From Lysobacter sp. (GTDB lineage Bacteria; Pseudomonadota; Gammaproteobacteria; Xanthomonadales; Xanthomonadaceae), in assembly GCA_011526085.1 (NCBI GenBank), contig WYBC01000037.1, positions 1 to 64,000 of the forward strand: DNA of 64,000 bases, in the 5' to 3' direction. Every line of letters begins with the position of its first letter. Within the stretch, counting starts at the first letter, position 1. Under the pieces are notes generated by a model. That model was not told the DNA's origin and did no database searches. It saw only the letters and a program-made list of their open reading frames with translations. The position numbers were made by a program, and so were the translations under genes. Shown piece after piece: positions 7,251 through 55,100 of the stretch.

Positions 7251-9371
7251 ATGCCTGCCGCGCCGCCACGTCGCACACCGCAGCTCGATCCGGCCGCACA
7301 GCCGCTGACCGCGCTCAGCGGCGTCGGCGCCGCGGTCGCCGAGAAACTGGCCGCGCGCGGGCTGCTGACGCTGCAGGACCTGTGGTTCCACCTCCCGCGT
7401 CAGTACGAGGATCGCACCTCGCTCACGCCCATCCGGAAACTGCAGCCGGGCCTGCCGGCGCAGATCGAGGGTACGGTGGAAGCGGTCGAGCGCGGCTTCC
7501 GCTACCGGCCGATGCTGCGCGTCGCGATCGGCGACGATTCGTACGCGACGCTCGTGTTGCGGTTCTTCCATTTCCGTTCGCAGCAGGTGGCGCAGTTCGC
7601 GCCGGGTACGCGGGTCCGCGTGTACGGCACGCCGCGGCCCGGACAACACGGGCTGGAAATCGTGCATCCGAGCTATCGCATCCTCGGCGGTGCGGGCGAG
7701 GTCGAACTCAGCGACCGTCTCGATCCGGTGTATCCGGCGATCGAGGGCATCGGCCCCGCGGTATTGCGCAAACTCATCGATCAGGCGCTGCAGCGGCTGC
7801 CGGACGAGCGCGCGATGGAACTGCTGCCGGCCGATCTCCTCGCGCACGAAGCGCTGTGCGCCGGCCTGCCGTCGCTGCGCGAAGCGCTGCTGACGCTGCA
7901 TCGCCCGCCGCAGGGCAGCGACGTGCAGGCGCTGCTGGCCGGTACGCATCCGGCGCAGCGCCGGCTGGCGCTGGAAGAACTGCTGGCGCATCACCTCACC
8001 CTGCGCAACCAGCGGATCGCCATGCAGGCGCACAGCGCGCCGCCGCTGCGGGCGGTGCGGCGCGCGAGCGCGCTGCGCAAGTCGTTGCCGTTCGCGCTGA
8101 CCCGCGCGCAGGAACGCGTGTTCGCCGAGATCCGCGACGACCTCGCAAAGCCGGTGCCGATGCTGCGGCTGGTGCAGGGCGACGTCGGCAGCGGCAAGAC
8201 CGTGGTTGCGGCGATGGCTGCGCTGCTGGCGGTGGAAGAGGGCCGGCAGGCCGCGCTGATGGCGCCGACCGAACTGCTGGCGGAGCAGCATCTGGCCAAC
8301 CTGCGCGGTTGGCTCGAACCGCTGGGCGTGCGCGTGGTCTGGCTGGCGGGCAAGGTCACCGGCAAGGCCCGCGAGGCGGTGCTCGCCGAGATCGCGGGCG
8401 GTGCGGCGCAGGTGGTGGTCGGCACGCACGCGCTGATGCAGGAAGGCGTGGTCTTCCGCGATCTCGCATTGGCCATCGTCGACGAACAGCATCGCTTCGG
8501 CGTGCATCAGCGCCTCGCGCTGCGCGACAAGGGCAGCGCAGGCACGCAGGTGCCGCATCAGCTGGTGATGACGGCGACGCCGATTCCGCGCACCCTGGCG
8601 ATGGCCGCGTATGCGGATCTCGATGTTTCCGCGATCGACGAACTGCCGCCCGGGCGCACGCCGGTGCAGACCGTGGTGTTGAGCGCGGAGCGTCGCCCGG
8701 AGCTGATCGAACGCATCCGCGCCGCGTGCGCGGAGGGCCGGCAGGCGTATTGGGTCTGCACATTGATCGACGACAGCGACGAAGTCGTGGCCCAGGCCGC
8801 GCAGAGCACCTACGATGCATTGACGCAGCAACTTCCGGCGCTGCGGATCGCGCTCGTGCACGGGCGGCTGAAGGCCGCCGAGAAACAGAAGACGATGGCG
8901 GCGTTCAAGGCCGGCGAGCTGCAGTTGCTGGTCGCGACGACCGTGATCGAGGTCGGCGTGGACGTGCCGAACGCCTCGCTGATGATCATCGAAAACGCCG
9001 AGCGGCTCGGTCTCGCGCAGTTGCATCAGTTGCGTGGCCGGGTCGGGCGCGGCAGCGCGGCCTCCAGCTGCGTGCTGCTGTACCAGTCGCCGCTGTCGCA
9101 GATGGCGCGGCAGCGGCTGGCGACGATGCGCGAAACCAACGACGGTTTCGTCATCGCCGAAAAGGATCTCGAACTGCGCGGCCCGGGCGAACTGCTCGGC
9201 ACCCGCCAGACCGGCCTCGCGGCGTTCCGCATCGCCGATCTCGGTCGCGATGCGGCCCTGCTGCCGACCGTGCAGCGTATCGGTGACGCGCTGCTGAAGA
9301 CTTCGCCGGAACTCGCCGAGCGCATCACCGGACGCTGGGTGGGCGGCGCTGCGCGTTACGCCAGCGCCTGA
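7251..9371 (+). CDS. recG: ATP-dependent DNA helicase RecG
   Basis: This 706-residue branch-migration helicase remodels stalled forks and Holliday junctions. The N-terminal wedge/OB domain (roughly residues 25-230) begins after LTALSGVGAAVAEKL. The helicase domain has Walker A GDVGSGKT at about residue 310, motif II DEQHRFG (the DEQH variant typical of RecG rather than DEAH), motif III VMTATPIPRTL and the C-terminal motif QLRGRVGRG. The segment ELRGPGELLGTRQTG near the C-terminus is a RecG hallmark. Length is within the family range (680-710). It ends 18 bp before the convergent repressor gene. Confidence 0.97.
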   Translation: MPAAPPRRTPQLDPAAQPLTALSGVGAAVAEKLAARGLLTLQDLWFHLPRQYEDRTSLTPIRKLQPGLPAQIEGTVEAVERGFRYRPMLRVAIGDDSYATLVLRFFHFRSQQVAQFAPGTRVRVYGTPRPGQHGLEIVHPSYRILGGAGEVELSDRLDPVYPAIEGIGPAVLRKLIDQALQRLPDERAMELLPADLLAHEALCAGLPSLREALLTLHRPPQGSDVQALLAGTHPAQRRLALEELLAHHLTLRNQRIAMQAHSAPPLRAVRRASALRKSLPFALTRAQERVFAEIRDDLAKPVPMLRLVQGDVGSGKTVVAAMAALLAVEEGRQAALMAPTELLAEQHLANLRGWLEPLGVRVVWLAGKVTGKAREAVLAEIAGGAAQVVVGTHALMQEGVVFRDLALAIVDEQHRFGVHQRLALRDKGSAGTQVPHQLVMTATPIPRTLAMAAYADLDVSAIDELPPGRTPVQTVVLSAERRPELIERIRAACAEGRQAYWVCTLIDDSDEVVAQAAQSTYDALTQQLPALRIALVHGRLKAAEKQKTMAAFKAGELQLLVATTVIEVGVDVPNASLMIIENAERLGLAQLHQLRGRVGRGSAASSCVLLYQSPLSQMARQRLATMRETNDGFVIAEKDLELRGPGELLGTRQTGLAAFRIADLGRDAALLPTVQRIGDALLKTSPELAERITGRWVGGAARYASA

Positions 9372-9388
9372 GCGCGCTGCTGAGGGCG

Positions 9389-9742
9389 TCAGCAGGCCGC
9401 GTCGTCGCCCTCGACCGGGCAGTAGATGTCGTGCAGGGTTTCGATCAACCGGTGGACCGGTCCTTCCGCCACCGAGTAATAGACGTTCTGCGATTCGCGC
9501 CGGGTCTGCACCCAGCCACCTTCGCGCAATACGGCCAGATGCTGCGACAGCGCCGACTGGCTCAGTTCGACCTCGGCATTGATTTCGCCCACGGTACGTT
9601 CGCCGTCGATCAGCAGGCACATCACCCGCAGCCGTTGCGGGTTGGACAAGGCCTTCAGCAGGTCCGCGGCCTGTTCGGCCTGCGCCTGCATCGTCGCGCC
9701 GAGCGCAGGCGAGGAAGGCTTCCGGCGGGATGCGGCGGCCAT
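9389..9742 (-). CDS. bigR: ArsR-family persulfide-responsive repressor (BigR/SqrR type)
   Basis: This 117-residue winged-helix repressor has an ArsR/SmtB helix-turn-helix around LSQSALSQHLAVLREGGWV (residues 60-78). Two cysteines, C42 in VMCLLIDGE and C108 in DIYCPVE, fall where BigR of Xylella and SqrR of Rhodobacter carry the pair that is oxidised by sulfane sulfur to release DNA. The metal-site residues of arsenic sensors are not apparent, and a third Cys is the C-terminal residue. It starts 2 bp after the stop of the upstream rhodanese gene, so both are one transcript running from the palindrome at 10173-10198. The expected role is autorepression and repression of the divergent sqr operon, relieved by sulfide. 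Family knowledge and motif placement support this; DNA binding is inferred. Confidence 0.85.
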   Translation of the reverse strand: MAAASRRKPSSPALGATMQAQAEQAADLLKALSNPQRLRVMCLLIDGERTVGEINAEVELSQSALSQHLAVLREGGWVQTRRESQNVYYSVAEGPVHRLIETLHDIYCPVEGDDAAC

Positions 9743-9744
9743 GC

Positions 9745-10134
9745 TCAGGACCTCTCTTCGGAGCCGCCGCTCTCGACCCAGCGCAGCCAGCCGCCGGCCA
9801 GCGACAGCGGCCGGTCGAATCCGAGGCGTTTCAGCGCCTCGGCGGCGAGCGCGGAACGGCCGCCGGTGCGGCAGTAGAGGATCACCGGTTCGCGCCGGTG
9901 CGACAGGTTCGGGTCGGTCCTGAAATTCACCGCCGGGTGCGCGTCGACCTGGAATTCCAGCATGCCGCGCGGAATGTTCACCGCCCCGGGCAGATGGCCC
10001 TCGGCGAACTCGGCCGGCTCGCGGACATCGATGACCGGCGTGCCGGCGGTCTGCAGCACGTGCAGCCGTGCGGGGTCGATTTCCTCGATGACGGCACGGG
10101 CCTGAGCGACGAGGTCCTGGGCGGTGTAGGTCAT
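9745..10134 (-). CDS. Rhodanese-like sulfurtransferase
   Basis: A single-domain rhodanese of 129 residues. The catalytic loop CRTGGRSA has C88, which would carry a persulfide between donor and acceptor. The upstream motifs VIDVREPAEFAEGHLPGAVNIP are classic for the fold. The ATG at 10132-10134 is preferred because GGAGA lies about 7 bases upstream. An in-frame ATG at 10168-10170 would add 12 residues, but would leave almost no leader beyond the operator. The gene is first in a two-gene operon with bigR and divergent from sqr, so it is likely induced by sulfide and may move sulfane sulfur from SQR-made glutathione persulfide. Confidence 0.9.
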   Translation of the reverse strand: MTYTAQDLVAQARAVIEEIDPARLHVLQTAGTPVIDVREPAEFAEGHLPGAVNIPRGMLEFQVDAHPAVNFRTDPNLSHRREPVILYCRTGGRSALAAEALKRLGFDRPLSLAGGWLRWVESGGSEERS

Positions 10135-10172
10135 GAACGGGTCTCCGGTGCGAGGTTGACAGCCTAGCAAAG

Positions 10173-10198
10173 TCTAATTAAGATATTTCTAAATTAGA
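10173..10198. promoter_or_regulatory. Probable BigR/SqrR operator (AT-rich 26-bp palindrome)
   Basis: Half-sites TCTAATT (10173-10179) and AATTAGA (10192-10198) are exact complements, and 11 of the 13 base pairs across the whole 26-bp dyad match. The element lies in an AT-rich island of about 50 bp in otherwise GC-rich DNA, between the divergent rhodanese-bigR and sqr genes, where AATAAT-like -10 boxes for sqr also occur (10210-10215). Position and AT-rich dyad symmetry fit the BigR box described in Xylella and Agrobacterium. The binding protein is inferred from the neighbouring gene. Confidence 0.72.
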
Positions 10199-10248
10199 TT
10201 TATATCAAATAATATTCGGCGAGTCGACCGAACACCCTGGGAGGGGCC

Positions 10249-11520
10249 ATGAGCAATATCGTCGTGATCGGAGCGGGTCTCAGCGGCATGAGCGCGGCTT
10301 ACGAACTGCGTGAGATCCTCGGCAAGGGGCATCGGATCACCGTCGTCGGTGACGGCGAGCGGTTCAGCTTCACGCCCTCGAATCCCTGGGTGGCGGTGGG
10401 CTGGCGCAAGCCGGACGAGATCACCCTGCAGGCCGGTGACTTCCTTTCGAAAAAGGGCATCGACTTCCGCGCCGACGGTGCGGCGAAGATCGATGCCGAG
10501 GGCCATCGGATCGTGACCGGCGACGCCACCTCGCTCGAATACGATTACCTGTTGATCTGCACCGGGCCGAAGCTCGCGTTCGACGAAGTGCCCGGCAGCG
10601 GCCCGGACGGCGGTCATACCCAATCGGTGTGCACCACGCCCCACGCGCAACACGCCTGGGAAGCCTACGAGGCGTTCCTGGCGCATCCGGGCCCGGTCGT
10701 GGTCGGTGCGATGGCCGGCGCGAGCTGCTTCGGCCCGGCCTACGAATTCGCGATGATCCTCGATGCCGATCTGCGCAAGCGGAAACTGCGCGACAAGGTG
10801 CCGATGACCTTCGTCACGAGCGAACCCTATATCGGCCACATGGGCCTGGGCGGAGTCGGCGATTCCAAGGGCATGATGGAATCCGAGCTGCGCCAGCGCC
10901 ACATCAAGTGGATCACGAACGCCAGGGTGAAAGAGGTGCGCGAAGGCGAGATGCATGTCGTCGAGCACGACGACAAGGCGCAGCCGGTCAGGGAACACGT
11001 GCTGCCGTTCGCGTATTCGATGATGCTGCCGGCGTTCAAGGGCGTCGATGCGGTCGCGGCGGTCGAAGGCCTGTGCAATCCGCGCGGTTTCGTGATCGTC
11101 GACAAGCACCAGCGCAGCCCGAAATTCCCGCGGATCTTCGCCGCCGGCGTCTGCGTGGCGATTCCGCCGGTCGAGGCCACGCCCATTCCGACCGGCGCGC
11201 CGAAGACCGGTTTCATGATCGAGTCGATGGTCACCACCATCGTCCGCAACATCGCAGCCGACATGAAGGGCGAACCCGCGACCTTCGAAGGCACCTGGAA
11301 CGCGGTCTGCCTCGCCGACATGGGCGACACCGGCGCCGCATTCGTGGCGCTGCCGCAGATTCCGCCGCGCAACGTCACCTGGACCAAGATCGGCAAGTGG
11401 GTCCACGTGGCCAAGATCGCGTTCGAAAAATACTTCCTCTACAAGATGCGCAACGGTACCAGCGAGCCGATCTACGAAAAGTACGTGCTCAGCGCGCTGG
11501 GCATCGAGCGCCTGAAATGA
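10249..11520 (+). CDS. sqr: Sulfide:quinone oxidoreductase
   Basis: A 423-residue membrane-associated flavoprotein that oxidises hydrogen sulfide at a cysteine disulfide/persulfide and passes electrons via FAD to quinone. The FAD motif VVIGAGLSGMSAA lies at residues 5-17. The three redox cysteines are C128 (SVCTTPHA), C160 (GASCFGPAYE) and C354 (AVCLADMGD); the first two occupy the numbers reported for the Acidithiobacillus ferrooxidans enzyme and the third is close to it. The C-terminus (KIAFEKYFLYKMRNG) is the amphipathic membrane-binding part. GGGAGG lies 7 bases before the ATG. It heads an operon running at least through the OsmC-like gene and probably to trxC, under the palindrome at 10173-10198. 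Confidence 0.94.
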   Translation: MSNIVVIGAGLSGMSAAYELREILGKGHRITVVGDGERFSFTPSNPWVAVGWRKPDEITLQAGDFLSKKGIDFRADGAAKIDAEGHRIVTGDATSLEYDYLLICTGPKLAFDEVPGSGPDGGHTQSVCTTPHAQHAWEAYEAFLAHPGPVVVGAMAGASCFGPAYEFAMILDADLRKRKLRDKVPMTFVTSEPYIGHMGLGGVGDSKGMMESELRQRHIKWITNARVKEVREGEMHVVEHDDKAQPVREHVLPFAYSMMLPAFKGVDAVAAVEGLCNPRGFVIVDKHQRSPKFPRIFAAGVCVAIPPVEATPIPTGAPKTGFMIESMVTTIVRNIAADMKGEPATFEGTWNAVCLADMGDTGAAFVALPQIPPRNVTWTKIGKWVHVAKIAFEKYFLYKMRNGTSEPIYEKYVLSALGIERLK

Positions 11521-11548
11521 CAGTTCCCCAACGATCCGGAGCCCTTTC

Positions 11549-11752
11549 ATGAATCTCGACCGTGCCGTGATGGCCTTCGCTGGCGTGATGATCTTCGTCA
11601 GCCTGGCCCTGACCCATTTCGTGTCGCCCTGGTTCTGGCTGTTCACCGCCCTCATCGGCGCGAACCTGCTGGTGGCCAGCCTCACCGGCTTCTGCCCGGC
11701 GGCGATCCTCTTCCGCAAACTCGGCGTGGCCAGCGGGTGCGCATTCAAATGA
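11549..11752 (+). CDS. Small DUF2892 (YgaP-like) inner membrane protein
   Basis: This 67-residue protein has two hydrophobic helices, about residues 8-26 and 29-48, and the signature FCPAAILFRKLGV with a second Cys close to the end. It matches the DUF2892 family, which forms the membrane anchor of YgaP rhodanese and is common next to sulfur and oxidative stress genes. Its function is unknown. A role anchoring or presenting sulfane sulfur at the membrane beside SQR is only an inference from context. It follows sqr by 28 bp and its stop codon overlaps the start of the adaptor gene (ATGA), so it is translationally coupled. Confidence 0.85.
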   Translation: MNLDRAVMAFAGVMIFVSLALTHFVSPWFWLFTALIGANLLVASLTGFCPAAILFRKLGVASGCAFK

Positions 11753-12837
11753 ACGGAATCCTGCGATTCGTCGGCTTCGCGCCGGTCTTCGCCCTGATCG
11801 CCACGATGGCCGGATGCGGCAGCGATCCGGCTGAACGCGTTGCGGCGCCGTTGCCGAAGCTCGACACGTTCGTCGTCGCCGCGGACACCGCGACCGGCGG
11901 TCGCGCCTGGGACGGTACGGTCGAGGCGGTACGCGAGGCCGTGCTCTCGGCGCAGACCGCGGGCCGCGTGACCGCGGTCGATGCGGACGTGAACGACCGC
12001 GTCGCCGCGGGACAGATCCTGCTGCGTCTGACCGTGGTCGAGCAGCAGGCCGGCGTCGATGCGGCACGTGCGCAACTGCGCGCGGCCGAAGCTTCGGCGG
12101 TGGAGGCGGAGCGCCAATTCCAGCGCTTCTCCGCGCTCGCGAAGGACAACTACGTGTCGCGCGCGCAGCTCGACCAGACCCGATCGGCGCGCGATGCCGC
12201 CAACGCGGCGCGCGATGCCGCCCGCGCACAGTTGTCGTCCGCGGGCCAGAACGCCGATTACACGACGGTCCGCGCGCCGTACGCCGGCATCGTGTCCGCG
12301 CGTCGGGTCGAGCCGGGCGAAACCGTGAATCCCGGGCAGCCGTTGCTGACGGTCTACGCACCCGACGATCTGCGCATCGAAGTGCGCGTGCCGCAGTCGG
12401 CCGCCGAATCCATCCGCGCCCAGCCCGGTGCCCGCGTGCTCTTCGACGATGGCATCGCCGTGGATGCGCGCGAAGTGGTCGTGTATCCCGCCGCCGATCC
12501 GGCCAGCCACAGCGTTCCAGTGCGCGTGCTGCTGCCGCGCATGGCCGGAGCAATCGCACCGGGGACCACGGCGAAGGTCGTGTTCCCGATCGGCGGCGAT
12601 GCGCGCGCGTTGCGGGTGCCTACGGCATCGGTGCTGCGCCGCGGTGAACTGACCGCGGTCTACGTGGTGAAGGATGGCCGCGTGCTGCTGCGCCAATTGC
12701 GTCTGGGCGCGTCCGAAGGCGGCACGGTCGAAGTCCTGGCCGGCCTGCGTGCGGGCGATGTCGTGGCGCGCGATCCGGAGGCGGCGGTGCAGGCCATCGC
12801 GCTGCAGCGCGATGCCGTGGGAGCCGGACATGGCTGA
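11749..12837 (+). CDS. RND efflux periplasmic adaptor lipoprotein (HlyD/AcrA family)
   Basis: A 362-residue membrane fusion protein with a lipoprotein signal (hydrophobic stretch then MAGC, acylated Cys about residue 23). The biotinyl-lipoyl halves are visible as AGRVTAVDADVNDRVAAGQIL and APYAGIVSARRVEPGETVNPGQ, flanking a coiled-coil hairpin (about 95-165). The beta-barrel and membrane-proximal domains follow (PTASVLRRGELTAVYVV). It bridges the inner-membrane pump encoded next to an outer-membrane channel, which is not encoded here. The start at 11749 is chosen because it overlaps the previous stop; an earlier in-frame ATG at 11737 would lie inside the DUF2892 gene. Confidence 0.92.
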   Translation: MNGILRFVGFAPVFALIATMAGCGSDPAERVAAPLPKLDTFVVAADTATGGRAWDGTVEAVREAVLSAQTAGRVTAVDADVNDRVAAGQILLRLTVVEQQAGVDAARAQLRAAEASAVEAERQFQRFSALAKDNYVSRAQLDQTRSARDAANAARDAARAQLSSAGQNADYTTVRAPYAGIVSARRVEPGETVNPGQPLLTVYAPDDLRIEVRVPQSAAESIRAQPGARVLFDDGIAVDAREVVVYPAADPASHSVPVRVLLPRMAGAIAPGTTAKVVFPIGGDARALRVPTASVLRRGELTAVYVVKDGRVLLRQLRLGASEGGTVEVLAGLRAGDVVARDPEAAVQAIALQRDAVGAGHG

Positions 12838-15800
12838 TCCGAATGCGACCGCCGCTGGGCCGCGACCCGAGGTGCGGCAGCCCCCGCGGCTCGGTTTCTC
12901 CGGCCGCATCGCCAGGGCATTCCAGGCGAATCCATTGACGCCGATCCTGGCGTTGATGGGGCTGATGCTCGGCCTCGTCGCCGTGCTGATCACGCCGCGC
13001 GAGGAAGAGCCGCAGATCGACGTGACCATGGCGAACGTGTTCGTGCCGTTCCCCGGCGCATCGTCGCGCGATGTCGAACAACTGGTCAGTTATCCGCTTG
13101 AGCAGAAATTGTCCGAAATCGAGGGTGTGAAACACGTCTATTCGATCAGCCGTCCGGGCATGGCGGTGCTGACGGTCGAATACACCGTCGGCGTCGAGCG
13201 CCAGCCGGCGATCGTGCGTCTCTACAACCAGGTGTTCTCCAATGCCGACTGGATGCCATCGGGCGTCGGTATCGGCCAGCCGCTGATCAAGCCCAAGGGC
13301 ATCGACGACGTGCCGGTGATGGCGTTGACGCTCTGGTCAGACGATGCGGACACCGGCGTCGAAGAACTCTCGGCGGTGGCGCGCACGCTGGAAACAGAAC
13401 TCAAGCGGGTGCCCGGGACCCGTGATGTCTACACCATCGGCGCGCCTGACCGCGTGGTCGCGGTGACCCTGGAGCCCGCCCGCCTCGCCGCGTTCGGGCT
13501 CAGCGTCGGCGAAGTCGCGCAGTCGCTGCAGGCGGCGAACGTGGTGCGTCATGTCGGCGAACGCGTCGGCCCGGATGGTGCCGGCCAGGACCATGCCGTG
13601 CCGGTCACCGCCGGTCGTTTCCTGGCAGATCGCGATGATGTCGCGCAACTGGTGCTGGGCATGCAGGACGGCAAACCGGTGACGCTGACGGATGTCGCCG
13701 ACGTGCGCGCCGGGATCGACGTCCCGTCGACCTACGTCTGGCACGGTGCGCCCGCGGGACAACCGGGGCCGAAGGCCGGCACCGCAGCCGCGCTGACGAT
13801 CGCCATCGCCAAGAAGCCGGGCAGCAACGCCGCCGACATCACCTCGGCGATCGCGGAACGGGTCGAAGTCCTGCGCGGCGAGCTGATCCCGGATGCGGTC
13901 CACGTCGATATCGTGCGCGATTACGGCCAGACCGCCACCGACAAGGCGCAGAAGCTCATCCAGAAACTGTTCTTCGCGACGATGTCGGTGGTGCTGCTGG
14001 TGTTGTTCGCGCTCGGCAAGCGCGAAGCGCTGGTGGTCGGCGCCGCGGTCGTGCTCACGCTCGCGCTGACGTTGTTCGCCTCCTGGGCGATGGGCTTCAC
14101 GCTCAACCGGGTCTCGCTGTTCGCGCTGATCTTCTCGATCGGCATCCTCGTCGACGATGCCATCGTCGTGGTCGAGAACATCCACCGGCACATGGCCCGC
14201 GGCGGCAGGACGCTGATCGAAGCGATTCCGCCGGCGGTCGACGAAGTCGGCGGCCCGACGATCCTGGCGACCTTCACCGTGATCGCCGCGCTGCTGCCGA
14301 TGGCCTTCGTCAGCGGTCTGATGGGGCCGTACATGCGGCCGATCCCGATCAATGCCTCCGCGGGCATGGTGCTGTCGCTGGCGGTGGCGCTGGTGGTGAC
14401 GCCGTGGCTGTCGCTGAAGCTGCTGAAGCCGCACGTCGCGCATCACGAAGCAAACATCGGCGCGGGTGCCGGCGCGGGCGAATCGCGCCTGCATCGGATG
14501 TTCTCGTGGGCGATGACGCCGTTCCTCGCCGGCGAGCGCGGGCCGCGGCGCCGGCGCTGGCTGTTCGGCGGGATGGCGGTTCTGGTGTTGTTGGCGGCGA
14601 GCCTCGCGGTGTTCCAGCTCGTGGTGCTGAAGATGCTGCCGTTCGACAACAAGTCGGAGATCCAGGTGGTCGTCGACATGCCGGAAGGCAGCACGCTCGA
14701 AACCACCAATGCGCTGCTCGTCGAACTGGCGGCGACCGCATCGACGTTCCCGGAAGTCTCAAGTTTCCAAGGGTATGCCGGCACCTCCGCGCCGATCAAC
14801 TTCAATGGGCTGGTGCGCCAGTACTTCCTGCGCAGCGGCGCCAACGTCGCCGATCTGCAGGTGAACCTGGTCGACAAGCATCATCGCGACCGCAAGAGTC
14901 ACGACATCGCCCGCGCGATGCGACCGGAGCTCGATGCCATCGGCCGTCGCTATGGCGCATCGGTGAAAGTGGTGGAGGTGCCGCCGGGCCCGCCGGTGCT
15001 GGCGCCGCTGGTCGCCGAGATCTATGGCCCGGATGACGCCGTCAGCCGCAAGGTCGCGCAGGCGCTGGCGGCGCGTTTCCGCGATACGGACGGCATCGTC
15101 GACATCGACACCACGGTGGAGAAGGCCGCGCCGCGCGAAGTGCTGGTGGTCGATCGCGAACGGGCGACCCGGCTCGGGGTGGATCAATCGACCATCGCGA
15201 ACACGCTGGCGGCCGCGGTCGGTGGTTACGACGCCACGTACGTGCAGGACGGCATCTCGCGTCGTCCGCGCCCGGTGCGCCTGCGCGTGCCGGTGTCCGA
15301 ACAGGCGAGCCTCGAACGCCTGCTGCAACTGTCGGTGAAGGGCGGGCAGGGACAGGCCGTGCCGCTGTCCGAAGTGACCCGGACCGTGGGTGCGGCGTGG
15401 GACGGCGCGATCCATCACAAGGATCTGCTGCCGGTGGTCTACGTGATGGGCGACGAGGCCGGAGAACTCGACAGCCCGCTGTACGGCATGTTCGATGTCG
15501 TCGGCCAGGTTTCCGACAACACCGTCGGCGAGCGGACGCTGTCGCAGTTCTTCGTCCGCCAGCCGGACAGCACCGCCGGTTACGCGATCAAATGGGACGG
15601 CGAGTGGCAGATCACCTACGAGACCTTCCGCGACATGGGCATCGCCTACGCCGCCGGACTGGTGCTGATCTATCTCCTGATCGTCGCGCAGTTCCGCAGC
15701 TATCTGGTGCCGCTGGTGATCATGGCGCCGATCCCGATGACCGTGATCGGCGTGATGCCGGGGCACGCGTTGCTGGGGGCGCAGTTCACGGCCACATCGA

Positions 15801-16123
15801 TGATCGGCATGATCGCGCTGGCCGGCATCATCGTGCGCAATTCCATCCTGCTGGTGGATTTCATCAATCAGGCGGTGGGCGAGGGCAGGACGCCGGCCGA
15901 AGCGGTGATCGAGGCCTGCGCGGTCCGCGCACAGCCGATCGTGCTGACCGCGGCGGCGGCGATGCTGGGCGCGTTCTTCATCCTCGACGACCCGATCTTC
16001 AACGGTCTCGCGGTCTCGCTGATCTTCGGCATTTTCGTCAGCACCGTGCTCACGCTGATCGTCATTCCGCTACTCTATTTCGTGCTGCTGGAGCGCAACG
16101 CCGCGAAGGAGAAAACCACATGA
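12830..16123 (+). CDS. RND-family efflux permease
   Basis: This 1097-residue inner-membrane proton-driven transporter has the usual layout of two repeats, each with one N-terminal helix, a large periplasmic loop and a helix bundle. Features seen include VFVPFPGASSRDVEQLVSYP early in the porter domain, the helix-4 segment ILVDDAIVVVENIHRH with the paired Asp residues used for proton relay, and the second-half IALAGIIVRNSILLVDFINQ. It belongs to the AcrB/HAE-like superfamily; substrate cannot be read from sequence. Its ATG lies 8 bp inside the end of the adaptor gene, and its stop overlaps the OsmC-like ATG. Placement in a BigR-SQR operon suggests export of a sulfur-stress related compound, but this is an inference. 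Confidence 0.93.
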   Translation: MADPNATAAGPRPEVRQPPRLGFSGRIARAFQANPLTPILALMGLMLGLVAVLITPREEEPQIDVTMANVFVPFPGASSRDVEQLVSYPLEQKLSEIEGVKHVYSISRPGMAVLTVEYTVGVERQPAIVRLYNQVFSNADWMPSGVGIGQPLIKPKGIDDVPVMALTLWSDDADTGVEELSAVARTLETELKRVPGTRDVYTIGAPDRVVAVTLEPARLAAFGLSVGEVAQSLQAANVVRHVGERVGPDGAGQDHAVPVTAGRFLADRDDVAQLVLGMQDGKPVTLTDVADVRAGIDVPSTYVWHGAPAGQPGPKAGTAAALTIAIAKKPGSNAADITSAIAERVEVLRGELIPDAVHVDIVRDYGQTATDKAQKLIQKLFFATMSVVLLVLFALGKREALVVGAAVVLTLALTLFASWAMGFTLNRVSLFALIFSIGILVDDAIVVVENIHRHMARGGRTLIEAIPPAVDEVGGPTILATFTVIAALLPMAFVSGLMGPYMRPIPINASAGMVLSLAVALVVTPWLSLKLLKPHVAHHEANIGAGAGAGESRLHRMFSWAMTPFLAGERGPRRRRWLFGGMAVLVLLAASLAVFQLVVLKMLPFDNKSEIQVVVDMPEGSTLETTNALLVELAATASTFPEVSSFQGYAGTSAPINFNGLVRQYFLRSGANVADLQVNLVDKHHRDRKSHDIARAMRPELDAIGRRYGASVKVVEVPPGPPVLAPLVAEIYGPDDAVSRKVAQALAARFRDTDGIVDIDTTVEKAAPREVLVVDRERATRLGVDQSTIANTLAAAVGGYDATYVQDGISRRPRPVRLRVPVSEQASLERLLQLSVKGGQGQAVPLSEVTRTVGAAWDGAIHHKDLLPVVYVMGDEAGELDSPLYGMFDVVGQVSDNTVGERTLSQFFVRQPDSTAGYAIKWDGEWQITYETFRDMGIAYAAGLVLIYLLIVAQFRSYLVPLVIMAPIPMTVIGVMPGHALLGAQFTATSMIGMIALAGIIVRNSILLVDFINQAVGEGRTPAEAVIEACAVRAQPIVLTAAAAMLGAFFILDDPIFNGLAVSLIFGIFVSTVLTLIVIPLLYFVLLERNAAKEKTT

Positions 16124-16581
16124 CCGATGCCCCCGATATCCGCGTCCTGCTCGAGCAGGAAGGGCCTTACGCCTTCAAGGTGAATTTCGAAGGCGCCGAT
16201 CTGGCGGCCCTGCATACCGACGAGCCCGCGCCGCTGGGAGCGGGCGCCGGCCCGAATCCCTCGGCGATCCTGCTGGCCAGCATCGCCAACTGTCTCGGCG
16301 CCAGCCTGCTGTTCGCGCTGCGCAAGTTCAGGAACGCGCCAGGCCCGATCCGCGCCGAGATCGTCGCGCGCAAGGAGCGCAATGCCGAAGGCCGTTGGCG
16401 GATTCCGCGCGCCGAGGTCACGATCCACTTGTCCGACAAGGCGGCCGATCTCGAACACTTCGATCGCGTGCTCGCCCAGTTCGAGCAGTTCTGCATCGTC
16501 ACCCAGAGCGTGCGCGAGGGCGTGGATGTCGCGGTGCGCATCGTCGACGCCGACGGTGTGGTCCGGGAGCCGGGCGCTTGA
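16120..16581 (+). CDS. OsmC/Ohr-family thiol peroxidase-like protein
   Basis: This 153-residue OsmC-fold protein has two conserved cysteines, in SIANCLGASL and FEQFCIVTQSV, the positions of the peroxidatic and resolving cysteines of OsmC/Ohr proteins. These enzymes reduce organic hydroperoxides, and some members also act on persulfides and polysulfides. The PNPSAILLASIANC segment is typical of the YhfA/OsmC subgroup. The ATG overlaps the stop of the RND permease (ATGA at 16120-16123), so it is translationally coupled to the efflux pump, which links it to the sulfide-responsive operon. A role in clearing reactive sulfur species is an inference. Confidence 0.88.
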   Translation: MTDAPDIRVLLEQEGPYAFKVNFEGADLAALHTDEPAPLGAGAGPNPSAILLASIANCLGASLLFALRKFRNAPGPIRAEIVARKERNAEGRWRIPRAEVTIHLSDKAADLEHFDRVLAQFEQFCIVTQSVREGVDVAVRIVDADGVVREPGA

Positions 16582-16748
16582 GCGACGGGCACCTGCCCCG
16601 TTCCGAGGCGCGGACATGGCCCGGTGCCGCGCGCGTGCGGCGGATTCCGGCCTTGGCCCGGACAAAAGCCATCCCCATCTTCCTCGTATCGGCGTCACGC
16701 GGACGACCCTGCTTCGCCCGTGTCGCCACGACCCCGGAGGATTGATCC

Positions 16749-17195
16749 ATGTCCGATGCAGATGCCAGTCTCCGAATCGCATGCCCGGCCTGTCATGCGC
16801 TCAACCGCGTGCCGGCCGCGCGTCTCGCCGATGCGCCGGTCTGCGGGCGCTGCAAGGCGCCCTTGTTCGCCGCGCATCCGCTTGCGCTCGATGTCGAGGG
16901 CTTCGAGCGCCACGTCGTGCAGTCGGATCTGCCGGTGCTCGTCGATTTCTGGGCGCCGTGGTGTCAGCCGTGCCTGATGATGGCGCCGCACTTCGAAGCC
17001 GCCGCAGGCGAGCTGGAGCCTGCGTTCCGGCTGGCCAAGATCGACACCCAGGCGCATCCCGCGCTCGGCGCGCGATTCGCCGTCCGCAGCATTCCGACCC
17101 TCGTGCTGTTCCGCGGCGGACGCGAGATCGCGCGCCAGTCCGGCGCGATGGGCGCCGGCGACATCGCCCGCTGGGCGCGTGCGCACGCGCGCTGA
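16749..17195 (+). CDS. trxC: Thioredoxin 2-like protein with N-terminal zinc ribbon and WCQPC active site
   Basis: A 148-residue cytosolic thioredoxin of TrxC type. The N-terminal zinc ribbon has CPAC (C12, C15) and CGRC (C32, C35), followed by a thioredoxin domain with FWAPWCQPCLMMAP (C72, C75) and the cis-proline segment RSIPTLVLF. The active-site dipeptide is Gln-Pro instead of the usual Gly-Pro, which should alter redox potential or partner choice. The gene begins 167 bp after the OsmC-like gene on the same strand, preceded by GGAGG-like bases about 8 bp upstream. Context suggests reduction of persulfides or protein disulfides during sulfide stress. Confidence 0.92.
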   Translation: MSDADASLRIACPACHALNRVPAARLADAPVCGRCKAPLFAAHPLALDVEGFERHVVQSDLPVLVDFWAPWCQPCLMMAPHFEAAAGELEPAFRLAKIDTQAHPALGARFAVRSIPTLVLFRGGREIARQSGAMGAGDIARWARAHAR

Positions 17196-17229
17196 GTCAT
17201 TCCACCCCGTTCACGCTCAGGAGTTCGTC

Positions 17230-17868
17230 ATGTCCGGTCTTCCCTTGCGTTTTCTTCTGGGCGCCATCGTCGTCGCGATGTTTCCCGTGGCGGCCTTCAT
17301 GGTGAGTGGGGCCACGACCGAGACCGCGCCGGCCTCCGCAGCAGAACCCGCGGCCGGCGCGACGACCGCCTCCGGTGTCGCGCTGTTGCGTCCGCGCGAG
17401 GGTCTGTTCGTCGCCGGTCAGCCGGGCGCGGGCGACTGGTCGGCGCTGGCCGCATCGGGCGTCCGCACCGTCGTCAATCTGCGTCCGGAGGGCGAGTTGA
17501 AGGGGCGCGACGAACGTGCGGAGGTCGCCGCCGCCGGCATGCGTTATGTCGAGCTGCCGGTGTCGGGGCCCGCCGACATCACGCCGGAAAACGCGAAGGC
17601 GCTGTCCGCACTGCTCGCGCAGGCCGATGGCCCGGTGCTGGTGCACTGCGCGAGCGGCAATCGCGTCGGCGGCCTGCTCGCGGTGGCGATGGCGCAGAAC
17701 GGCATGTCGACCGCGCAGGCGCTGGATTTCGGCCGCATCGCCGGCATGAAATCGATCGAAGGACGCGCGCGCGAAGTCATCGAACAGGCGGTTGAAGAGG
17801 ACGCGCCCGCGCGCTGCCTCGCCGCGCGCGACACCGCCGATCCGTCGCAATGCCCCGCGGGCGGCTGA
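17230..17868 (+). CDS. Exported or membrane-anchored DUF442 sulfurtransferase/phosphatase-like protein
   Basis: This 212-residue protein has a hydrophobic N-terminal segment (about residues 5-28) and an Ala/Thr-rich linker, then a cysteine phosphatase-fold domain with loop HCASGNRVGG (C140). It resembles DUF442, the N-terminal domain of the bifunctional Blh protein, in which this Cys loop acts in sulfur transfer. Here the domain is separate and probably faces the periplasm, unlike the fused cytosolic version. The ATG at 17230 is preferred since the frame's earlier ATG (17179) overlaps the thioredoxin gene and would hide the signal segment. It lies 34 bp after trxC on the same strand and converges on the dioxygenase gene. 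Confidence 0.82.
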   Translation: MSGLPLRFLLGAIVVAMFPVAAFMVSGATTETAPASAAEPAAGATTASGVALLRPREGLFVAGQPGAGDWSALAASGVRTVVNLRPEGELKGRDERAEVAAAGMRYVELPVSGPADITPENAKALSALLAQADGPVLVHCASGNRVGGLLAVAMAQNGMSTAQALDFGRIAGMKSIEGRAREVIEQAVEEDAPARCLAARDTADPSQCPAGG

Positions 17869-17882
17869 TCCGGCAGCCTTTC

Positions 17883-17906
17883 ATCCGGCGCGGCAGCGCG
17901 CCGGAT
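17883..17906. terminator. Bidirectional hairpin between DUF442 and dioxygenase genes
   Basis: A perfect 10-bp stem ATCCGGCGCG / CGCGCCGGAT with loop GCAG lies between convergent stops; its right edge reaches the first base of the dioxygenase stop codon. Neither side has a long T-run. Confidence 0.6.
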
Positions 17907-18772
17907 CAGAAGCGATCGATCGGCAGTTTCAGATAACGCACGCCGTTGTCCTCGGGCTCCGGCAGCCGCCCCGCGCGGATGTTGACCTGCACCGACGGCA
18001 GCAGCAGCGTGGGCATCGCCAGGGTGGCGTCGCGCGCGGTGCGCACGGCGACGAAGGCGTCCTCGTCGATGCCGTCGCGCACGTGGATGTTGCCGGCCTT
18101 CTGCGCGGCGATGGTGGTTTCGCAGGCGTAGGCGCGGCCGCCGGGCGCGTAGTCGTGGCAGACGAAGACGCGGGTGTCGTCCGGCAACGCGAACAGGCGC
18201 TGGATCGAGCGATAGAGCATGTGCGCGTCGCCGCCGGGGAAATCACAGCGCGCCGTGCCGCCGTCGGGCATGAAGATCGAATCGCCGACGAACAGCGCAT
18301 CGCCGCCGATGCGATAGGCCACGCTGTCGTTGGTATGGCCCGGCACCGCGACGATCTCGGCTTCGAGGCTGCCGATCGCGAAGCGTTCGCCGTCGGCGAA
18401 CAGACGATCGAACTGCGAGCCGTCGACCGGGAAGTGTTCGCCGAGATTGAAGATCGGCCGGAACGTCTTCTGCACCGTGCGGATGCCTTCGCCGATCGCG
18501 AGCGTCGCGTCGGCGAATCGCGATTTCAGCCAGTGGCCGGCGCTGAGATGATCGGCATGCGCATGGGTTTCGAGGATCCAGCGGACGTCGAGTCCATGCG
18601 TGCGCGCATGATCGACCAACGCCTGCGCCGAGGTCGTCGCGGTCCGGCCGGATTTGGCGTCGAAGTCGAGCACCGGATCGACGATGGCGGCCTGTCGCGT
18701 CGCCGGATCGTGAACGACGTAGCTCCAGGTGCAACTGTCGCCGTGGAAGAAAGGCGTCACCTCTGCGCGCAT
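17906..18772 (-). CDS. Persulfide dioxygenase (metallo-beta-lactamase fold, Blh/ETHE1-like)
   Basis: This 288-residue MBL-fold enzyme should oxidise glutathione persulfide to sulfite. Metal ligands are visible in THAHADHLSAGH (H70, H72, D74, H75), VPGHTNDS and the FVGDSIF Asp, with a later CHDYAPGGR. That last motif resembles the lactamase half of Blh rather than human ETHE1. In Xylella and Agrobacterium this domain is fused to DUF442; here it stands alone and convergent to the separate DUF442 gene. No palindrome like that at 10173 is visible upstream of its start (18772), so it may not be under direct BigR control. Assignment to persulfide oxidation rests on family and context. Confidence 0.88.
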   Translation of the reverse strand: MRAEVTPFFHGDSCTWSYVVHDPATRQAAIVDPVLDFDAKSGRTATTSAQALVDHARTHGLDVRWILETHAHADHLSAGHWLKSRFADATLAIGEGIRTVQKTFRPIFNLGEHFPVDGSQFDRLFADGERFAIGSLEAEIVAVPGHTNDSVAYRIGGDALFVGDSIFMPDGGTARCDFPGGDAHMLYRSIQRLFALPDDTRVFVCHDYAPGGRAYACETTIAAQKAGNIHVRDGIDEDAFVAVRTARDATLAMPTLLLPSVQVNIRAGRLPEPEDNGVRYLKLPIDRF

Positions 18773-18888
18773 GACGGACTCCGTCTGTGTGGATGCCCTC
18801 GATTCTAGCGCCCGGCGCGTGGCGTCTTCGGACGCGACCTCTTCAGGTCGCGTCTCCGGTTCCGGCGCCGACCGTGCATAATCCCGAG

Positions 18889-19836
18889 ATGACCGAAAAA
18901 CTTCCCCTGCTGATCGACACCGACCCGGGCGTGGACGACGCGCTCGCCCTGTTGATGGCCTTCGATGCGCCGCATCACGAGGTCGTCGCCCTCACCATCG
19001 CCGCCGGCAACGTCGGCCTGAAACATACCGTCGCCAACGCGCTGAAACTGTGCGAAGTCGCCGAGGTCGACGTGCCGGTGTTCGCCGGCTGCGACGCGCC
19101 GCTGCTGCATTCCGCGCCGGACGCGTCGTACGTGCATGGCCGCGACGGTTTCGGCGACATCGGCTACCCGCCCGCCGTCCGCCAGGTCGAAGCCGAACAC
19201 GCGACCCGGGCGATGATCCGCCTGTCGCACGAACACGCCGGCCGGCTGGTCGTGTGCATGCTCGGTCCGCTGACCAATCTGGCGGTGGCGCTGAAGCTCG
19301 ATCCGACCCTGCCGCAGCGGGTGGGCCGCATGGTGGTGATGGGCGGCGCCGTGACCGGGCAGGGCAACACGACGCCGATGGCCGAGTTCAACATCGGTTT
19401 CGACCCGGAGGCGGCGCACATCGTGTTCGAGGCCTTCGCCGCCGCCGGCGTGCCGGTGGAGGTCGCGGACTGGGAGGCGGTGGTCCGCCATGGGTTCCTG
19501 CATACCGAAGTCGACCGCTGGCTGCAGGCCGACCATCCGCGGGCGCGGTTCTACGACGCCATCTCGCGGAAGACCCGCGAATGGTCCGCGGGCCTGCGCG
19601 GCGCGCACTGGCACGCCGCCGATGCTCTGGCCATGGCGCTGCTGGTTGCCCCGGAAGGGGCGGTGGCACGCGAGCGCCGGCCGCTGCGGGTGGAATTGAT
19701 CGGGACCGAGTCCCGCGGCGCCACCGTGGTGGACTGGGGGCGCCGCAGCGGCCGCGCGGACAATGCCGACATCCTGATGGCCTACGATCAGGCGGCCTTC
19801 GAGGCCCTGATCCGCAAGGCCCTGCGGGCCGGCTGA
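18889..19836 (+). CDS. Inosine-uridine preferring nucleoside hydrolase family protein
   Basis: A 315-residue enzyme that cleaves the N-glycosidic bond of ribonucleosides to ribose and base. The calcium-binding motif DTDPGVDDA is at residues 10-18. Other family features are VCMLGPLTNLAVAL, VVMGGAV and AEFNIGFDPEAAHIVF; the last carries the Asn and Asp contacts for the ribose. A His-Trp-His segment (GAHWHAADALAMA) supplies the C-terminal Asp ligand. The upstream in-frame ATG at 18787 would add 34 residues without similarity, so the start at 18889 is preferred. The substrate base preference cannot be read directly. It appears monocistronic. Confidence 0.93.
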   Translation: MTEKLPLLIDTDPGVDDALALLMAFDAPHHEVVALTIAAGNVGLKHTVANALKLCEVAEVDVPVFAGCDAPLLHSAPDASYVHGRDGFGDIGYPPAVRQVEAEHATRAMIRLSHEHAGRLVVCMLGPLTNLAVALKLDPTLPQRVGRMVVMGGAVTGQGNTTPMAEFNIGFDPEAAHIVFEAFAAAGVPVEVADWEAVVRHGFLHTEVDRWLQADHPRARFYDAISRKTREWSAGLRGAHWHAADALAMALLVAPEGAVARERRPLRVELIGTESRGATVVDWGRRSGRADNADILMAYDQAAFEALIRKALRAG

Positions 19837-52135: not shown

Positions 52136-55100
52136 ATGACCGCGCTCCACGACGCGATCGAATACAGCGCGCTGGGCTGGGTCAAACCCGAGCTCGACGA
52201 AACCCTGCGTCTGGTGCGCGTCGAGATCGAAGGCTTCGCCGACGATCCGTCCGACACCAGCCGGATGCGCGTCTGCGCCGATCTGCTGCATCAGGTGCAG
52301 GGCACCCTGCGCATGGTCGAGCTGTATGCGCCGGCGATGGTCGCCGAGGAGATGGAACAGCTCTCCGTCGCGCTGCAGAACGGCCAGGCTTCTGACCGCG
52401 ACGGCGCCTGCTCGGCGCTGATGCGCGGCGTGGTGCTGCTGCCCGACTATCTCGAACGCCTGCAGAGCGGCCACAAGGAAATCTCGATCGTCCTGCTGCC
52501 GATGCTCAACGAGCTGCGCGCCGCGCGCGGCGAGGCGGGCCTCAGCGAAAGCGTGCTGTTCAATCCGGATCTCGACCGGCCGCTGCCGGCGACGCTGCCC
52601 AAGGCGACGCCGCTGTCGCCCGCGGCGCGTGCGCATGAAGTCGCGCCGTATCTGGTCCGCCTGCGCGACGCGCTGCAGTCGTGGCCCGAACAGGGCCCGC
52701 CCGGCGACGCCGAGGGCCTGCATTTCGCGGCCGAAGCGCTGCTCGCCCGCACCACCGACGAGTCGCAGCGGCGGATGCTGTGGGTGGCTTCGATGGTCGC
52801 CACCGCGCTGCGCGACAAGGCGATGACGTCGAGCGCCGGCCTGCGCCAGGCCTTCGCCAGCGTCGACCGCGAAAGCCGCGGCATCTTCCAGCAGGGCGGT
52901 TTCGACGCGCCGCGCGCCGACGCCGCGCTGGAACCGACCCGTCAGCTGCTGTACCACGTCGCCCACAGCGATTCGGTGCATCCCGCGCTGTCGAAGCTGC
53001 GCGATGTCTTCGCGCTCGACGCGCTGAAGCCGACCGAATCCGAACTCGATCACGCCCGCGGCAGCGTCGCCGGCCGCAATCGTTCGCTGCTCGACACGGT
53101 CTCCGCCGCGATCAAGGAAGACCTGCTGCGGGTGAAGGACGAACTTGATCTTTATCTGCGCACCGGCAAGAGCAATCCCGCCGAGCTGCAGCCGCAGGCG
53201 GAACGCCTGCAGAACGTGTCCGACACCCTCGGCATGCTCGGCCTCGGTCTCGCCCGCAGCCTCGTGCTGCAACAGCGCGAGGCGATGCAGGAGATCGTCG
53301 ACGGCAAGCGCAAGGCCGACGAGACCGCGTTGCTGGAAGTCGCCGGCGCGCTGCTGTACGTCGACGCATCGCTCGACGACCAGGTCGCGCGTCTCGCCAG
53401 CGGCGACAGTGTCGATTCAGAAGACGACCTCGCCGGCGCCGAAGCGCGCAAGGTGCTGGACGTGCTGGTGCGCGAGGCGATCGCCAACTTCGCCCTCGCC
53501 CGACAGGCCTTCGTCGCGTTCGTCGAAACCGCCTGGAGCCATGCCGAACTCGAACCGGTGCCGAAGCTGCTTCGCGACGTCTCCGGCGCGCTGAACATCC
53601 TGGAATTGCCGCAGCCGGCGCAGTATCTCGACGGCGTGCGGCTCTACACCGAAATCGAACTGCTGGAGCGTCGCCGCATTCCGAACGGCCGCCAGCTCGA
53701 CACCTTCGCGGACGCGCTCGCCAGCGTCGAGTACTACCTCGAAGCGCTGCGCGAATCGCGCGCGAATCGCGACGACATCCTCGACATCGCCCGCAACAGC
53801 CTGGAAGCCCTCGGCTATTGGCCGCTGCCGGCCGAACGGCCCGCGGCGGCGCCCGTCGCCGTGCCCGCTGTCGACATGCCCGCTGTCGAAATGCGTGTTG
53901 TCGAAACGCCTGCCGTTGAAGTACCCGCAGTCGAAGCGCCCGCAGTCGTCGAAGCGGCCGTTGTCGAAGTGCCCGCCGTCGAGCCTGTCGCCATCGAAGC
54001 CGCTGCCGTCGAGCCCGCTGCCGCTGCACCCGCTGTCGTCGAAGCCGCCACCATCGCGCCTGTCGCGGAGACGCCGGCACCGGCAGCTCCGGTCGAGCCC
54101 AAGCCCTTCGTGCCGCTGTTCCTGCCGCCGCGCGAACCCGCGGCCCCGACACCGGTGCCCGCGGTCGAGCCCGTCGCATTCGCGCCGCCGGTCGAAACCG
54201 CGCCGGCTGCCGACGTCGTGCCGCCGGTCGAAGCCGTCGAAGCGCGTTCCGCGGTGGATGTGCTCACCGATGCCGAGCCGGCCGCACCGGCCGCGCCCCC
54301 CGCGGCAGCGCCGACCGCTGCGCCGGTTGTCGAGCCCGCTGTCGAGCCGGTCGCCGCCGGATTCGATGCCACCAGCGACGACATCGACGACGAAATCCGC
54401 GAAATCTTCCTCGAGGAATTCGAGGAGGAGATCGGCAACCTCGCCCTGCTGCTGCCGGCGTGGAAGGCCGATCCGAACAACATCGAGCTGCTGCAGCCGG
54501 TCCGCCGCGTCTTCCACACGCTGAAGGGCAGCGGTCGCCTCGTCGGCGCCAAGACCCTCGGCGAGTTCAGCTGGAAGATCGAGAACATGCTGAACAAGGT
54601 GCGCGACGGGCATCGCCCGGCGACGCCGCCGGTGGTCGCCATGGTCGATCAGGCCTATTCGACGCTGCCGCAGCTGCACGCCGCGCTGCGCGGCGAAGGC
54701 GGCGTGACCGTCGACCTGCGCGCGATGGAATCCTTCGCCGAGCGCATCGCCGGTGGCGAGGAAGTGATGCCGGTCATCGCCGCCATCGCGACCGCGCCGG
54801 CCGTCGTCGACACCGCGCCGGTCGAAACCCCGATGGCCGAAGCCGCGGTCGTCGCGCCCGTGGTCGAACCCGTCGTGGCCGAAGCGCCGGCCGTCGTCGA
54901 AGAAGACGGCATCCCGGTCAGCGTCGACGCCATCCTGCTCGAAATCCTGCAGGCCGAAGTCGGCGGTCATCTGACCACCATCCACGGCTGGCTGGCCCGT
55001 GCGCGCAGCGCGCCGGTCGCGGCCGACGAACCGCTGGTCCGCGCCATCCACACCATGAACGGCGCGTTCGCGATGGCCGAAGTGCCGTCGATCACCGACG

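Follow-up and report, generated by a model that had tools for sequence, protein, structure and literature searches.

The window analysed here, 64,000 nucleotides of a Lysobacter sp. contig (WYBC01000037.1, assembly GCA_011526085.1, positions 1 to 64,000), holds a ten-gene locus at 9389-18772 in which sulfide-detoxifying genes and a resistance-nodulation-division (RND) efflux pump are predicted to stand under a sulfur-sensing switch, and comparison with relatives suggests that the pump is a lasting part of the response. We consider it probable, at about 0.7, that this is a reactive-sulfur response locus, in which a persulfide-sensing ArsR-family repressor would derepress sulfide oxidation and the RND pump together, and the pump would move sulfane sulfur. 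Several kinds of sequence evidence support the regulatory part, namely a two-cysteine ArsR, an operator on both promoters and the pump as a target; the chemical part we infer. Open reading frame and domain searches confirmed the ten genes, in the order and with the cysteines (ArsR C42 and C108; sulfide:quinone oxidoreductase, SQR, C128, C160 and C354) that an earlier inspection of the letters, hereafter the sequence-only reading, had given. The features are as follows.

9389-9742, minus strand: ArsR-family repressor, BigR/HlyU/YgaV-like, of the two-cysteine (C42/C108) reactive-sulfur sensor type (Pfam HTH_5)
9745-10134, minus strand: single-domain rhodanese with C88 (Pfam Rhodanese; C88 in 38 of 38 aligned rows)
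10156-10184, plus strand: sigma-70-like promoter towards sqr, TTGACA-17 nt-TAAGAT (promoter search)
10173-10198, no strand: predicted 26-bp palindromic ArsR operator over both -10 hexamers (matrix score 33.7 bits)
10180-10208, minus strand: sigma-70-like promoter towards rhodanese-arsR, TTGATA-17 nt-TATCTT (promoter search)
10249-11520, plus strand: SQR, Acidithiobacillus ferrooxidans-like (phmmer E 1.1e-169 to 3sz0)
11549-11752, plus strand: DUF2892, small membrane protein resembling the YgaP transmembrane domain, with C49 (Pfam YgaP-like_TM)
11749-12837, plus strand: RND periplasmic adaptor (NCBIfam RND_mfp, above cut-off)
12830-16123, plus strand: RND permease of a distinct clade (Pfam ACR_tran)
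16120-16581, plus strand: OsmC-like protein with C58 and C125 (Pfam OsmC)
16749-17195, plus strand: thioredoxin TrxC with zinc-ribbon (NCBIfam TrxC, above cut-off)
17230-17868, plus strand: DUF442/TIGR01244-type protein (Pfam BLH_phosphatase; TIGR01244 67.7 bits, cut-off 85.85)
17883-17906, no strand: hairpin where the DUF442 and dioxygenase genes converge, lacking a T run (folded as DNA, z -2.9)
17906-18772, minus strand: persulfide dioxygenase of the metallo-beta-lactamase fold, like the dioxygenase half of Blh (NCBIfam Blh model)

The overlapping start and stop codons proposed earlier are present as ATGA between DUF2892 and adaptor (11749-11752), as 8 nt between adaptor and permease (12830-12837, the permease starting at 12830) and again as ATGA between permease and OsmC (16120-16123). 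Together with the short gap of 28 nt between sqr and DUF2892, these overlaps tie sqr through to osmC. Since the dioxygenase gene is convergent and TrxC follows OsmC only after 167 nt, the ten genes need not form one unit. Two sigma-70-like promoters were found in 9300-18900, against 0.6 expected from shuffles, both in the rhodanese/sqr gap and pointing away from each other; an Rfam search of the window gave no match.

The sequence-only reading had treated the pump as an insertion in the sqr operon; the comparison does not support this, nor that the pump is peculiar to this genome. Window-like sqr genes occurred in 54 of the 198 genomes sampled from the family, the window's own included (56 rows), and 54 of the 56 rows were examined as loci, the window itself and a truncated locus (G182) being left out. 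DUF2892 was near sqr in 52 of these loci, the permease in 51 and ArsR in 48, with all three together in 47; the other genes were less constant (TrxC 34, rhodanese 29, dioxygenase 28, OsmC 27, DUF442 15). In an order-wide search the permease was present in 85 of 200 genomes, and among 26 further loci, taken from the best-scoring ones, ArsR was near the pump in every case and DUF2892 in 22, while sqr was absent from 12; in all 12 of these sqr-less loci the pump keeps ArsR and the operator. Outside the family, only one (L027) of 29 SQR loci with 1.5-kb flanks (L005-L033) shows ArsR plus DUF2892, so the linkage does not go with sqr by itself. Among the loci examined, ArsR, DUF2892 and the pump are thus the lasting unit, and sqr is variable.

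In relatives of the locus the gap between the divergent genes carries a recurrent AT-rich palindrome within GC-rich DNA. A plain search for the best palindrome was dropped, as it returned mixed and often GC-rich palindromes, and a 26-bp matrix was used instead, built by expectation-maximisation from 61 ArsR|sqr gaps of sqr-containing loci, the window's included. Two loci with gaps above 320 bp (L110 and L158) were excluded from training and scored 35.7 and 22.2 bits, uncounted here. The held-out sqr-less loci carried a site in 12 of 12 cases (17.5-35.7 bits, each above 100 shuffles), these being loci of the same order with near copies among them (L149-L152; L147/L148). Within the 64 kb, position 10173 is the only matrix site above 20.3 bits, its own other strand aside, and a weaker register overlaps it at 10188 (20.2 bits); a pattern search allowing up to 3 mismatches found the operator at no second place in the window's genome (4.2 Mb, 48 contigs). 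Furthermore, the matrix scores 29.9 bits at -43 and 27.6 bits at -27 from the start codon of ygaV in Escherichia coli K-12, where the next-best score in a 5.5-kb stretch is 4.3 bits, and the available part of a report on YgaV places the transcription start at -28 with a DNase footprint near it (PMC9774250). As the matrix matches a promoter with a published footprint, the 26-bp motif is, judged from sequence, very likely the binding site of this regulator class. The two ygaV sites (L356, 3169-3210) overlap and lie 16 bp apart, an arrangement that suggests tandem YgaV binding.

The motif also recurs where the pump stands alone. We scored 48 pump loci with no ArsR, DUF2892, SQR or dioxygenase match nearby and with enough upstream sequence, pump-only loci lacking an adaptor match or having fewer than 260 bases before the adaptor being omitted, and counted a site when it reached at least 17 bits in the stretch from 250 bp ahead of the adaptor frame to 60 bp inside it. 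Such a site was present at 21 of the 48, including pumps of Thiocapsa, Allochromatium, Thiococcus, Thiohalocapsa, Thioalkalivibrio, Thalassolituus and Neptunomonas; as controls, column-permuted matrices gave a mean of 0.27 and a maximum of 5 in 500 runs, and shuffled sequences 0.05. Other open reading frames of the same loci had a site in 8 of 318 cases, the top six being divergent genes that share the pump's gap. In six pump-only loci the divergent genes that share the operator region of the pump (UbiD, CBS, GST, AMP-binding and two unmatched) belong to no common family. A two-cysteine ArsR was encoded elsewhere in 21 of 22 genomes with a site (the 21 above and G796, at 16.9 bits) and in 3 of 10 without (Fisher p 0.0003, uncorrected for kinship). 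One locus among the 48 (L199) was scored as site-less, with a 19.6-bit site found farther up; of the three site-less genomes with a two-cysteine ArsR, G910 has a 19.6-bit site farther up. When one ArsR locus per operator-bearing pump-only genome was checked (two in G601), a site of at least 17.7 bits was near the ArsR gene in four (L326, L330, L341, L342), so autoregulation through it is not a general feature. Both the linkage counts and those of the operator exceed chance, and by both kinds of evidence the RND pump appears as a conserved target of this regulator class. The earlier proposal that efflux belongs to the same response thus gains support from the conserved linkage with ArsR and DUF2892, and from the operator before sqr-less and stand-alone pumps.

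The regulator has cysteines C42, C108 and C117, the first two kept in 62 of 62 rows of an alignment of the window protein and its relatives. Its closest solved chains are HlyU, then BigR and YgaV, with the cysteine pair aligned to that of HlyU. It thus carries the two cysteines of the reactive-sulfur-sensing group (BigR/SqrR/YgaV/HlyU), and its operator matrix agrees with the E. coli ygaV promoter; from its sequence we class it as a HlyU/BigR/YgaV/SqrR-type protein. The sequence-only reading had called it a BigR-type sensor, of which the likeness and the cysteine pair stand; since it scores 94.2 bits against the NCBIfam BigR equivalog NF040642, below the cut-off of 155, we name it BigR-like and not BigR. 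In SQR, C128, C160, C302 and C354 are kept in 68 of 68 rows, C302 being a further invariant cysteine, and the three redox cysteines C128, C160 and C354 align with cysteines of the solved A. ferrooxidans chain, as in a type I SQR. Against the Blh fusion model NF040641 (cut-off 625) the dioxygenase scores 396 bits over positions 141-423 and the DUF442 protein 53.8 bits over the N-terminal part. The contrast drawn earlier with Blh-encoding BigR operons therefore needs amending: both Blh halves are encoded here, as two genes in place of a single protein. By eye, the DUF442 protein has a hydrophobic N-terminus followed by a low-complexity linker, and its place of action may be extracytoplasmic, in contrast to that of the DUF442 half in a Blh fusion.

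Permease and adaptor together (ACR_tran, RND_mfp) place the pump in the drug/hydrophobe type of RND systems. Against the named NCBIfam subfamilies the permease stays below every cut-off; it shares about 24% identity with AcrB, MdtB and MdtC, and its closest named relatives, among the best 80 matches listed, are from Luteimonas and other Lysobacterales. The adaptor, by eye, is possibly a lipoprotein through C23. None of the ten genes encodes an outer-membrane channel; a gene from a cluster whose single tested member is OEP occurs at 27 of 120 related pump loci. The window's genome has 13 listed matches to the RND permease family and two DUF2892 genes, one of them in the sqr-pump operon. The second DUF2892 gene (genome G000, contig C26, 127534-127722) scores higher (80 bits), and its contig has no permease among the listed RND family matches.

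Taken as a working model, reduced ArsR would occupy 10173-10198 and block both divergent promoters, as the position of the site and the example of E. coli YgaV suggest, and persulfides or polysulfides would bridge C42 and C108 and release it, as in characterised members of the family. The rightward transcript would comprise SQR, DUF2892, adaptor, permease, OsmC and perhaps TrxC and DUF442, its unity being suggested by the coding overlaps and by the fact that no other operator sites were found; the leftward one would carry rhodanese and ArsR. SQR would convert sulfide to sulfane sulfur, and rhodanese, DUF442 and TrxC, together with the dioxygenase from its own transcript, would transfer, reduce or oxidise the product. 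SQR enzymes of this kind produce sulfane sulfur at the membrane, and RND pumps take their substrates from the periplasm or the membrane, which would fit hydrophobic sulfur chains or organic polysulfides. Our best guess is that the pump would export a sulfane-sulfur product, such as polysulfide, S8 or an organic persulfide or polysulfide, or else what forms when such a product reacts with thiols. Export would use an outer-membrane channel whose gene lies elsewhere, with DUF2892 and its membrane cysteine as a partner. DUF2892 could handle membrane sulfur, because C49 is kept in 81 of 81 rows, E. coli YgaP among them.

In a wider scan of named genomes, the best 80 permease relatives had DUF2892 near 49 pumps, which it precedes in 26 loci and follows in 23; ArsR was near 36 and SQR of at least 400 bits near 20 (23 with weak matches counted). 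Across 398 genomes sampled from the phylum, permease scores fell into two tiers, the first holding 44 rows at 1390 bits or more. ArsR frames near pumps had both cysteines in 34 of 46 cases and did not in the other 12. In the plasmid collection, relatives at E up to 1e-150 occurred in 41 records, and among 17 loci examined DUF2892 was near 15 pumps, a two-cysteine ArsR near 11 and a clear SQR near 8. Plasmid 1 of Paracoccus denitrificans carries a Blh-like operon (dioxygenase, DUF2892, YeeE-type, DUF6691, TIGR01244) and, beyond it, ArsR, cytochromes and then DUF2892-adaptor-permease; in Azospirillum (L360, L361) the operator lies before the DUF2892/pump pair and also before a separate ArsR gene 5 kb away. 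A tree of 100 permease rows, which excludes loci with fewer than 1900 bases before the permease or 2500 after it, requires at least 5 changes between linked and unlinked and 8 changes of arrangement. The linkage turns up again, with the genes otherwise ordered, in Alpha- and Betaproteobacteria and, in part, in Cyanobacteria.

Several observations weigh against the proposed reading. Four of the sqr-less loci of the order lack DUF2892, and among 40 first-tier loci of the phylum-wide sample DUF2892 was near only 14 and ArsR near 7, so the linkage is common and not universal. In a Burkholderiales branch the pump-adjacent ArsR lacks C42 (12 of the 46 ArsR frames near pumps) and the matrix finds no good site. 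Two of the eight SQR-bearing plasmid loci are cyanobacterial, with an adjacent ArsR that lacks the cysteine pair. Loci of Paracoccus, Nitratireductor, Rhizobium and Shinella with a two-cysteine ArsR gave no matrix site, and neither did 27 of the 48 stand-alone pumps. Moreover, much of the linkage is, as the tree indicates, shared descent, with 5 changes over 100 rows as the least number; an independent-pairs test of DUF2892 against ArsR or SQR yielded 4 pairs, too few for significance. The matrix-negative alphaproteobacterial loci may have another operator, for example one of the SqrR type, given as ATTC-N8-GAAT in the accessible text of PMC9774250. As to the layout of these branches, the C42-less ArsR of the Burkholderiales loci (e.g. 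L213, L219, L228, L233, L245, L247) is of a different type and divergent to the pump, and DUF2892, often with SQR, lies downstream of the pump; on the plasmids of Pseudanabaena (L362) and Kovacikia (L368), genes for SQR, rhodanese and ArsR adjoin pumps that belong only distantly to the clade.

The main rival explanation, possible although we hold it rather doubtful, is that ArsR senses reactive sulfur as the trigger of a general defence and the pump would export other toxins (drugs, bile-like or plant compounds, damaged lipids), being merely sulfur-induced in the way that MexAB-OprM is through MexR. The drug/hydrophobe family type of the permease speaks for it, as does precedent: multidrug efflux is under the control of the sulfane-sulfur sensors MexR and MarR (PMC11211675), and YgaV affects antibiotic tolerance (PMC9774250). 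Yet the named multidrug permease families of NCBIfam all fall far under their cut-offs, and the constant company of SQR, rhodanese, dioxygenase and DUF2892, kept in varied gene orders, exceeds what a general pump would need. An answer to organosulfur compounds or thiol electrophiles, with thiosulfinates, isothiocyanates or organic polysulfides of plant or microbial origin as both inducer and cargo and with OsmC and TrxC in repair, seems unlikely to us. OsmC- and TrxC-type genes do occur in allicin-tolerance clusters and stand beside the pump in 27 and 34 of the 54 family loci, but this is less constant than DUF2892 (52), and from what is known of their families the substrates of SQR and the dioxygenase are inorganic sulfide and glutathione persulfide.

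We give little credence to the view that the pump is a passenger, kept beside the sensor by descent alone with no functional tie. The concentration of linked loci in a few clades, with at least five changes between linked and unlinked states on the tree, is what it would predict; the gene order nevertheless varies between clades (DUF2892 before, after or divergent), the operator still precedes pumps that have no sqr, ArsR or DUF2892 in their vicinity, and in the window start and stop codons overlap and the operon holds one of the genome's two DUF2892 genes. Least probable of all, and in our judgement remote, is a metal- or peroxide-stress island whose ArsR senses a metal, a metalloid or peroxide: the repressor passes the general NCBIfam ArsR/SmtB metalloregulator model (89 against 55 bits), but its cysteine pair, closest solved relatives and operator are of the reactive-sulfur sensor kind and its neighbours are sulfide enzymes. 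A metal could act as a second signal for ArsR.

The reading as a sulfur-responsive locus with a sulfane-sulfur pump may be carried further, and here we are tentative and stay below even odds: this RND clade, spread over Alpha-, Beta- and Gammaproteobacteria with distant members in Cyanobacteria, would serve specifically to export reactive or zero-valent sulfur with a DUF2892/YgaP-type membrane cysteine protein as partner, and would be directly repressed by persulfide-sensing ArsR, also where it stands alone in sulfur oxidisers. If true, a direct switch would link sulfide exposure to RND efflux, with a bearing on the reported effects of H2S on antibiotic tolerance. Little is known of the routes, oxidation aside, by which bacteria dispose of persulfides and polysulfides, and pumps of one clade that share a conserved operator for a sulfur sensor offer a defined candidate for sulfur export that can be tested; in Acinetobacter baumannii, the accessible portion of one study has a YeeE/YedE transporter moving sulfur of unknown form (PMC7315123).

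Elsewhere in the window, at 52136-61565, Hpt, histidine-kinase ATPase, CheW and response-regulator domains are combined in one frame of 2456 aa, which is followed by a CheB-like protein. This looks like a pilus-type chemosensory cluster, presumably akin to Pil-Chp.

According to section 2.1 of a 2025 paper, ArsR regulators of the sulfane-sulfur type seem to have neighbouring RND pump genes among their targets (PMC12423496), so the bare idea is not new; it fills one clause there, and that section does not describe the pump clade, its DUF2892 partner or an operator of the pump. In the open-licence literature we found no description of the pump clade, the DUF2892 tie or the pump's own operator, which is weak evidence of absence. 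MexR and MexAB-OprM likewise pair a sulfane-sulfur-sensing repressor with an RND pump, but MexR is of the MarR family, the pump is a general multidrug one and sulfide-oxidation genes are not mentioned in the sections at hand (PMC11211675). The SqrR regulon of Rhodobacter capsulatus also sets a two-cysteine ArsR over a type I SQR and rhodanese, with no pump mentioned in the excerpt available (PMC9995734). E. coli ygaVP has the same regulator class with a matching operator, and YgaP joins a rhodanese to a DUF2892-like domain with the same cysteine, whereas in the window rhodanese and DUF2892 are separate and the ygaVP neighbourhood examined has neither an RND pump nor sqr. The BigR operons of Xylella and A. 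baumannii, with Blh/PDO2 and YeeE-type transporters, likewise place a two-cysteine ArsR beside sulfur dioxygenase and TIGR01244-type genes, and the A. baumannii account, in its accessible portion, names no RND pump (PMC7315123). In the window, by contrast, the dioxygenase and DUF442 are encoded by separate genes, and sqr, DUF2892 and the RND pump stand beside the operator.

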